The notes under the pieces: generated by a model
The model's input: only the letters and a program-made list of their open reading frames with translations
Database searches by the model: none
Told to the model about the DNA's origin: nothing
Translations under genes and position numbers: made by a program
In this document: piece by piece, positions 8,825-9,696 of the stretch
Layout: the number at the start of each line of letters is the position of its first letter
Numbering within the stretch: the stretch's first letter is position 1
Assembly (NCBI GenBank): GCA_028287235.1
Contig: JAQBQB010000026.1
Span: forward strand, 1-64,000
Reading direction: 5' to 3'
DNA length: 64,000 nt
From: Gemmatimonadota bacterium
GTDB taxonomy: Bacteria; Gemmatimonadota; Gemmatimonadetes; Gemmatimonadales; Gemmatimonadaceae

Positions 8825-8840
8825 CTGGTCGCGCGACCAG
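8825..8840. promoter_or_regulatory. Perfect 16-bp palindrome, possible operator
   Basis: CTGGTCGCGCGACCAG is fully self-complementary. It lies in the 166-base divergent gap between the barrel gene (minus) and the DNA-binding gene at 8922 (plus), where a repressor site for either would be expected. Function is inferred from position only. Confidence 0.4.
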
Positions 8841-8849
8841 GTAGAGACT

Positions 8850-8920
8850 AATATCCTTATGAAATAGTATATTAATCGAGAAGGAGCGGTATTATATTTA
8901 TCTTCTCTCAGAAGGATATT
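8850..8920 (+). promoter_or_regulatory. AT-rich leader with inverted repeat over the ribosome site
   Basis: The strip 8843-8921 is strikingly AT-rich for this genome. AATATCCTT at 8850-8858 is the exact complement of AAGGATATT at 8912-8920. The second copy contains the AAGGA ribosome site of the gene starting at 8922. If transcription begins before 8850, the mRNA can fold so that the ribosome site is paired. Alternatively the two arms are protein-binding half-sites. Both readings are inference. Confidence 0.45.
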
Positions 8921-8921
8921 T

Positions 8922-9302
8922 ATGGCTCGCTCCTATCATGTTGAGATCGCACAACATGCCGCAGATGCGGATGCAAAGTGGGTCGACAACCTACTCTCGC
9001 ATTTCAACATCCCCGGAGTCGAAGGCGGCCGCCAGGGCGTCGCGCGGCGAATCTCGCTGCACGGCATCTACCATGTCGCGTTGATCCGCCGGCTGACGCG
9101 CGGTCTGACCGTGAGTGTAGACGCCGCTGTCTCCCTGGCGAGACACCTGTTGACCACCGATGCCGAACATTTATCCCTGTCGGGCGGTTTGAGTCTGCAT
9201 CTCGACCGGCGGGTCTTCGAGCGGGAGGTCGATGCCGCGCTTGCGGTCGCGGTGGAATCGGTCGCACCTGCCCGTCGCGGTCGGCCGCCCCTGAGGCGCT
9301 GA
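8922..9302 (+). CDS. Small DNA-binding protein: MerR-like helix-turn-helix plus AT-hook-like tail
   Basis: 126 residues, ATG at 8922 with AAGGA five bases before. Residues about 17-60 (KWVDNLLSHFNIPGVEGGRQ onward to ALIRRLT) read like a MerR-type winged helix, and the next 30 residues are helical. The last 10 residues, ARRGRPPLRR, contain the GRP core flanked by arginines that defines AT-hook motifs, which grip the minor groove of AT-rich DNA. Its own leader is the most AT-rich piece nearby, so self-control is plausible. I do not recognise a named family; the regulator call rests on these two motifs. Confidence 0.55.
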   Translation: MARSYHVEIAQHAADADAKWVDNLLSHFNIPGVEGGRQGVARRISLHGIYHVALIRRLTRGLTVSVDAAVSLARHLLTTDAEHLSLSGGLSLHLDRRVFEREVDAALAVAVESVAPARRGRPPLRR

Positions 9303-9320
9303 ACATCGACCAAAACGAAC

Positions 9321-9344
9321 GGGGCGCCCAACACTGGGCGCCCC
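9321..9344 (-). terminator. Terminator of cold-shock gene
   Basis: Perfect 10-bp stem GGGGCGCCCA / TGGGCGCCCC with loop ACAC. Read on the minus strand it is followed by a T-rich stretch (GTTCGTTTTGG). It lies between convergent genes and may serve both. Confidence 0.8.
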
Positions 9345-9373
9345 GCGCTACTTCGCCGATCAGGAGCCGAGCG

Positions 9374-9589
9374 TCAGCTCGCGATCGCCTTGCTCACGTT
9401 CTCGGCAGCCGGTCCCTTCTGGCCTTGCACGAGGTCGAATTCCACCGGCTCACCCTCAGCGAGGGTCTTGAAGCCGTTGCCCTGGATGGAGCTGTAGTGG
9501 ACGAAGCAATCCTTGTCGTCGCCGTCTGGGGTAATGAACCCGAAACCCTTGGCGTCGTTGAACCACTTTACTTTGCCGCTCGTGCGCAT
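9374..9589 (-). CDS. csp: Cold-shock domain protein
   Basis: 71 residues, one OB-fold cold-shock domain that binds single-stranded RNA/DNA and melts mRNA structure. The RNP1-type segment [10 protein letters not shown] and RNP2-type CFVHYSSI are clear. The ATG at 9589 ([10 protein letters not shown]) has AGGAG upstream; an upstream extension of the frame is ignored. An about 100-base leader separates it from a likely promoter at 9697-9725, and a strong hairpin terminator follows. The arrangement matches the second cold-shock gene at 45856-46059. Long leaders of this kind often mediate cold control, not demonstrated here. Confidence 0.93.
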
Positions 9590-9696
9590 GGCCGACTCCT
9601 GAAAGAACGCGCCGCGACAACACCATGTTGCGCGGGGGAGAACACGCCGAAACCGAATCTCCGGCACTCCCGGAGGACCGGTTTGAGGCGACGGCC

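Follow-up and report, generated by a model that had tools for sequence, protein, structure and literature searches.

Twin inverted repeats in an AT-rich leader form a candidate self-control site of a predicted MerR-type protein in Gemmatimonadaceae

Results

Organisation of the locus

The window, meaning the whole 64-kb stretch of DNA that was analysed, contains a gene for a 126-residue protein that is neighboured by an outer-membrane-protein (OMP) gene and by a cold-shock protein gene (csp). We identified the following features in and around this gene:

8849–8854, plus strand: possible −10 box TAATAT, 17 nt from TGGTCG at 8826–8831; the best-scoring pair before the distal operator, weak.
8852–8871, no strand: putative distal operator TATCCT-TATGAAAT-AGTATA; right half with one mismatch, spacer of 8.
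8899–8918, no strand: putative proximal operator TATCTT-CTCTCAGA-AGGATA; left half with one mismatch, spacer of 8.
8912–8916, plus strand: ribosome site AAGGA, from the sequence, 5 nt before the ATG at 8922.
8922–9302, plus strand: gene for the 126-aa MerR-like (predicted) winged-helix protein, from the open reading frame, homologues and a structure model; closest solved fold CvkR.
9273–9290, plus strand: codons of the AT-hook-like tail RRGRPP, from the sequence.
9374–9586, minus strand: convergent csp, from NCBIfam cold-shock matches; a conserved neighbour.

The leader (8843–8921) has a GC content of 29.1% against 65.2% for the 64-kb window, in line with a preliminary description of this DNA that had called it AT-rich. 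Among the 63,921 strips of 79 nt in the window, seven are as low in GC as the leader, all of them starting between 8842 and 8849, and the lowest of all starts at 8845. The two complementary 9-mers reported in the same description are also correct: AATATCCTT (8850–8858) and AAGGATATT (8912–8920) are exact reverse complements, and the ribosome site AAGGA lies inside the latter.

Each of these 9-mers is one half of a dyad of its own with an 8-nt spacer, a feature that had been overlooked. The intact left half of the distal dyad falls within AATATCCTT, and the intact right half of the proximal dyad, which includes the ribosome site, falls within AAGGATATT. The two dyads stand in tandem, 47 bp apart, and both are imperfect, each with one mismatch of 12 to the family consensus TATCCT-N8-AGGATA. 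Any two copies of the same palindrome complement each other by necessity, and thus the 9-bp match requires no RNA explanation.

Conservation of the dyad among relatives

A protein-level search of 98 related genomes detected the gene in 24. With profile A1, a 24-row alignment of family members, 98 of 179 Gemmatimonadaceae genomes gave a match, either to the gene itself or to a distant relative. The family set comprises 90 full-length members from 89 of these 98 genomes (one genome gave two); seven genomes with a distant relative only, G125 (partial) and G206 (on a contig without the leader) were left out. Leader counts refer to 89 leaders, that of L082 being shorter than 100 nt and left out.

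The leaders of homologues carry the dyad TATCCT-N8-AGGATA directly before the start codon and frequently have another copy farther upstream. Allowing at most two mismatches, a spacer of exactly 8 occurs in 52 of the 89 leaders, against 0–10 leaders for each other spacer between 0 and 60. The exact core TCCT-N8-AGGA is present in 45 of the 89, and other spacers up to 30 give at most two leaders each. A second core (at most one mismatch of 8) lies 28–49 bp upstream in 20/89 leaders, compared with a mean of 1.7 and a maximum of 5 in shuffled leaders, and this upstream copy covers no ribosome site. No fixed helical phase between the two operators was found, with spacings of 28, 36, 45, 47, 48 and 49. 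Alignment of the 52 proximal sites revealed near-complete, symmetric A/T occupancy at three positions on each side, and the 20-bp dyad with its flanks can be written as WAW-TATCCT-N8-AGGATA-WTW.

The imperfection of both window dyads counts against reading this dyad as an operator, and so do two observations on the family. The dyad is missing at up to two mismatches from 37 of the 89 leaders, and therefore some family members have altered or lost the operator. The right half also serves as the ribosome site, a role that explains part of its conservation. The leaders L012, L013, L011 and L048 (genera g13 and g7) are AT-rich and lack the consensus dyad; their operator, if there is one, may be altered. 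In the homologues at L005 and L007, the expected start near position 1500 in gene orientation is occupied by CTG or ACG instead of ATG, GTG or TTG, possibly as a rare start codon or through a sequence error.

Confinement of the dyad to the leader

A pattern search of the 179 family genomes, tallied by hand, returned 37 perfect dyads, of which 35 lie in leaders of the gene (33 genomes) and two elsewhere. None occurs in the 81 genomes that have no match to the family profile. Looser sites outside leaders number 17 across the family, against approximately 39 for the reversed pattern in the same kind of tally, and are background. As a sequence pattern, the dyad is private to the leader of its own gene.

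The window contains no further operator-like site at up to two mismatches beyond the twin dyads. In its own genome of 5.73 Mb, four sites are found at up to one mismatch of 12, two of which are the leader dyads; at up to two mismatches there are 36 sites versus 14 for the reversed pattern. One of the two outside sites at up to one mismatch lies inside long open reading frames (L029) and the other outside the open reading frames of at least 120 aa listed for L026, and on account of these locations we claim no further regulon target.

Predicted fold and C-terminal tail of the protein

The AlphaFold2 model obtained with the 24-row alignment has a mean pLDDT of 90.8. Its best solved match is CvkR (PDB 7xn2; Z 11.2, 2.4 Å over 109 residues, 9% identity), followed by CueR, CarH, RacA, CadR, GlnR and other MerR-type proteins. 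Nine chains reached a Z of at least 8, and those listed were all MerR-type; the listing leaves room for matches to other families beyond its rows. Foldseek gave a weaker signal, with a best E-value of 6.5e-3 and no match reaching 1e-3. On the fold prediction alone, the protein has the N-terminal winged helix of MerR-type proteins, and the symmetry of the dyad would be consistent with a MerR-type homodimer. Residues G39 and R42, which the model places in the wing region, are the same in all 24 rows of the alignment.

Sequence-based searches were far less informative. The window protein has no match in Pfam (including MerR), NCBIfam or PADLOC, a single PHROGs match has an E-value of 0.33, and a search of PDB sequences with profile A1 gave no credible match. 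Searches of phages, plasmids and viral contigs, the last of them with the four-row alignment A3 only, found no homologues. We found no publication on this protein family in the open PMC literature, which does not prove absence.

As the preliminary description had noted, the protein carries RRGRPP near its C-terminus, within the terminal sequence ARRGRPPLRR. The RGRP tail is shared by 89 of the 90 family members, and R119–P122 are invariant in the 24-row alignment. An AT-hook consists of an R-G-R-P core with basic flanks, and the tail has both. The A/T flanks of the dyad are predicted to be compatible with minor-groove binding of an AT-hook.

Position of the predicted promoter

Among the 47 leaders with a single operator, the best sigma70-like −10 box starts 12–8 nt upstream of the dyad in 20; shuffling 100 times gave 3.17 such leaders on average and never more than 8. 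The trinucleotide TTG at −34 or −33 was counted 16 times over these 47 leaders. In most of them, the predicted boxes are 17–18 nt apart and lie before the dyad, in a scan that penalised a spacer of 19 and disallowed one of 20. With the −10 box just before the dyad, the predicted start falls within the left half, and the message would lack one arm in the single-operator leaders. Two-operator leaders show no enrichment of the −10 box at this position. For the window gene, a consensus scan found no promoter and pair scoring gave weak boxes only; the TAATAT/TGGTCG pair scores near the shuffled mean.

RNA pairing and alternative explanations

The preliminary description had named an RNA thermometer formed by the 8850/8912 helix as one of two plausible readings, a reading that folding in silico does not support. 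When 8843–8990, which includes the first codons, was folded, the helix reached a mean pair probability of 0.0001 at 37°C, rising to 0.012 at 55°C. The ribosome site was 0.19–0.21 unpaired from 10 to 55°C. Over this range, the longer leaders showed no melting step of the ribosome site, that is, no in silico transition from closed in the cold to open in the warm; in a message starting at 8902, the site was 0.39–0.52 unpaired. In a transcript ending at 8925, the helix has a probability of 0.89 at 37°C; in the longer transcript it gives way to pairing between the first codons and the G-rich stretch around 8882–8889. The folding model leaves room for a transient co-transcriptional form of this helix.

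For covariation, 88 leaders with an AGGATA-like right half were reduced to the 71 that keep at least three of the six left-half consensus bases, a cut-off that favours the consensus. One-sided changes of the dyad number 62 in these 71 leaders: 49 disrupt the base pair and 13 turn it into G-U. Of the 20 two-sided changes, 16 are complementary and 4 are not. The helix is not one preserved by compensating changes. Symmetric changes would fit DNA and RNA readings alike, and the many unpaired one-sided changes would be a misfit to a conserved helix.

Three explanations other than DNA binding by the encoded protein were weighed against these data. That an AT-rich strip within a GC-rich genome yields complementary 9-mers by chance has virtually no probability left. 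When 8841–8909 was put through 5000 dinucleotide shuffles, 1.7% of them gained an exact 9-nt match complementary to the ribosome-site region, so the match by itself is only mildly unusual and is not strong evidence; the dyad with one fixed spacer nevertheless recurs in relatives at 27–64% protein identity, and this comparison refutes a chance origin. An RNA thermometer or other RNA switch, with the ribosome site paired to either the left 9-mer or its local partner in the proximal dyad and freed as the temperature rises, is in our estimate very improbable. It draws on the position of the ribosome site inside the right half of the window’s proximal dyad, whose local pairing is predicted with a mean probability of about 0.7 from 10 to 45°C, on the complementarity retained in most two-sided changes, on the helix favoured in the transcript ending at 8925, and on the ability of most proximal dyads to pair as RNA, provided that the left half is transcribed. 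Against it stand the lack of a melting step and the negligible helix once the first codons are included, the predominance of unpairing among one-sided changes, the spacer fixed at 8, the recurrence of a similar dyad upstream and away from the ribosome site, the predicted start inside the left arm of single-operator leaders, and the absence of any match to an Rfam thermometer family on the plus strand at E-values up to 10. With pairing that is not conserved and no melting step in the folding model, we rejected the RNA thermometer.

The dyads could also be DNA sites at which the encoded protein activates its own gene, or sites of a different regulator; we consider this improbable, somewhat less so than an RNA switch. 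MerR-type proteins often act as activators, and in two-operator leaders the distal copy overlaps an AT-rich −10-like sequence. However, perfect sites track the presence of the gene down to their absence from the 81 genomes without it, and the single-operator dyad lies downstream of the predicted −10 box and over the start, which would be a typical position for repression.

Gene neighbourhood and distant relatives

The convergent csp lies downstream of the family gene in 83 of the 90 loci, with ispG beyond it in 72, and upstream we found argH in 66 loci and the OMP gene in 33; since some loci end at contig ends, these counts are lower bounds. A functional link to cold shock was rejected: the synteny is strong (83/90), yet there is no third operator-like site at up to two mismatches in the 64-kb window. 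The Rfam cspA thermoregulator model matches 9316–9678 on the minus strand from end to end, with 62.5 bits against a gathering score of 78 and an E-value of 3.7e-15; much of this score may be owed to coding sequence. A strong terminator-like hairpin of 12 pairs, 10 of them G-C, follows csp on the minus strand (9319–9346) between the convergent genes.

The distant relatives found by profile are longer than family members. In 6 of 8 loci examined (L123–L128), a nucleotidyltransferase-like gene directly follows the distant relative. Three of its products (L124, L126 and L127) were scanned with Pfam, and each exceeded at least one cut-off: L124 matched AbiEii (23.7 bits, cut-off 22.5), L126 matched DUF6036 (24.1 versus 23.6) and DUF2204 (21.4 versus 20.3), and L127 matched DUF2204 (30.9 versus 20.3). 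The relatives themselves (L124:1412–2385, L126:1488–2467 and L127:1414–2388) carry an RGR(P/R) motif and a C-terminal extension. We regard these three gene pairs as candidate toxin-antitoxin pairs.

At L119:1458–2102 and L121:1451–2059, the regulator is seemingly fused to part of a nucleotidyltransferase, with a stretch that by eye is like EWGAYPRGIERGLPFIMDAATL. L120, L123 and L126 have AT-rich inverted repeats beside the start codon, again recognised by eye, with a sequence unlike TATCCT-N8-AGGATA. The loci of the distant relatives suggest kinship with toxin-antitoxin-type regulators.

Discussion

The preliminary description had left a choice between thermo-control and DNA-level self-control. 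The dyads of relatives and the predicted MerR-type fold speak for the second, and the missing melting step and negligible helix against the first. The computation shows a dyad with a fixed spacer, present twice and confined to the leader, as well as a conserved tail and a predicted fold; from these we infer that the leader is likely to be a DNA control region, in which the encoded protein would bind the twin dyads and lower the expression of its own gene. In the proposed mechanism, the protein would bind both 20-bp dyads, most likely as a homodimer. Each TATCCT half would be recognised by a MerR-type winged helix, and the C-terminal RGRP tails would contact the A/T flanks through the minor groove. 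By covering the transcription start and the ribosome site, the bound protein would then reduce its own expression, resulting in negative autoregulation.

Our preferred guess is a small protein that binds AT-rich DNA, limits its own level and has a common origin with toxin-antitoxin-type regulators. We also put forward a bolder proposal, which taken as a whole is speculative and rather unlikely: in Gemmatimonadaceae, a toxin-antitoxin-type regulator may have been domesticated, losing its nucleotidyltransferase partner and settling beside a cold-shock gene. Its own leader would be its sole specific target, one dyad would serve as both operator and ribosome site, and the AT-hook-like tail would let the protein act more broadly and with less specificity on AT-rich DNA.

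The family and the site are novel, and the principle is ordinary. An undescribed and widespread family of Gemmatimonadaceae (full-length members in 89 of 179 genomes) hereby gains a predicted fold, a predicted DNA site and a function that can be tested. That the only recognisable site of a regulator lies in its own leader raises the question of the protein’s purpose, and relatives beside nucleotidyltransferase genes hint at an origin that is open to testing. The analysis also illustrates that comparing relatives tells a DNA dyad from an RNA hairpin where a single sequence permits both.

Comparison with known systems

In RNA thermometers such as fourU and ROSE, the ribosome site is able to pair with an upstream U-rich stretch. 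The ribosome site of the window gene can likewise pair with such a stretch; it differs from these elements in showing no melting step in the model, no conservation of the pairing and no plus-strand Rfam match.

CueR, CadR, NmlR, CarH and GlnR share the predicted winged-helix topology with residues 1–93 of the model, whereas an identity of 7–16% and the lack of a Pfam MerR match set the protein apart from canonical MerR-type regulators. Classical MerR sites sit between −35 and −10 boxes separated by a long spacer of 19–20 nt; in contrast, the dyad of single-operator leaders follows the predicted −10 box.

CvkR, the solved structure that fits best and covers almost the entire chain, is likewise a small MerR-type protein. 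The passages of its report drawn on here describe a repressor of type V-K CRISPR-associated transposons with a palindromic site, a homodimeric state and translation from a leaderless mRNA (PMC9938897). Its motif, given there as AnnACATnATGTnnT, has a spacer of 1 compared with 8 in the Gemmatimonadaceae dyad, and tests on cvkR in these passages point away from autoregulation (PMC9938897). The neighbours of the present family, OMP, csp, argH and ispG genes, also distinguish it from CvkR.

The type IV antitoxins AbiEi and Rv2827c repress themselves via paired inverted repeats of 23 bp, located in the roughly 130 bp that precede the start codon and overlapping the promoter, according to the portion of the source cited here (PMC7319586). 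The corresponding dyad in the window leader spans 20 bp rather than 23. The protein has no AbiEi family match in Pfam or PADLOC, and the adjacent nucleotidyltransferase toxin gene of type IV AbiE systems is absent beside the window gene, being found with distant relatives only. Besides the paired repeats before the start codon, the likeness to AbiEi systems lies in these distant relatives, which are encoded right before nucleotidyltransferase-like genes.
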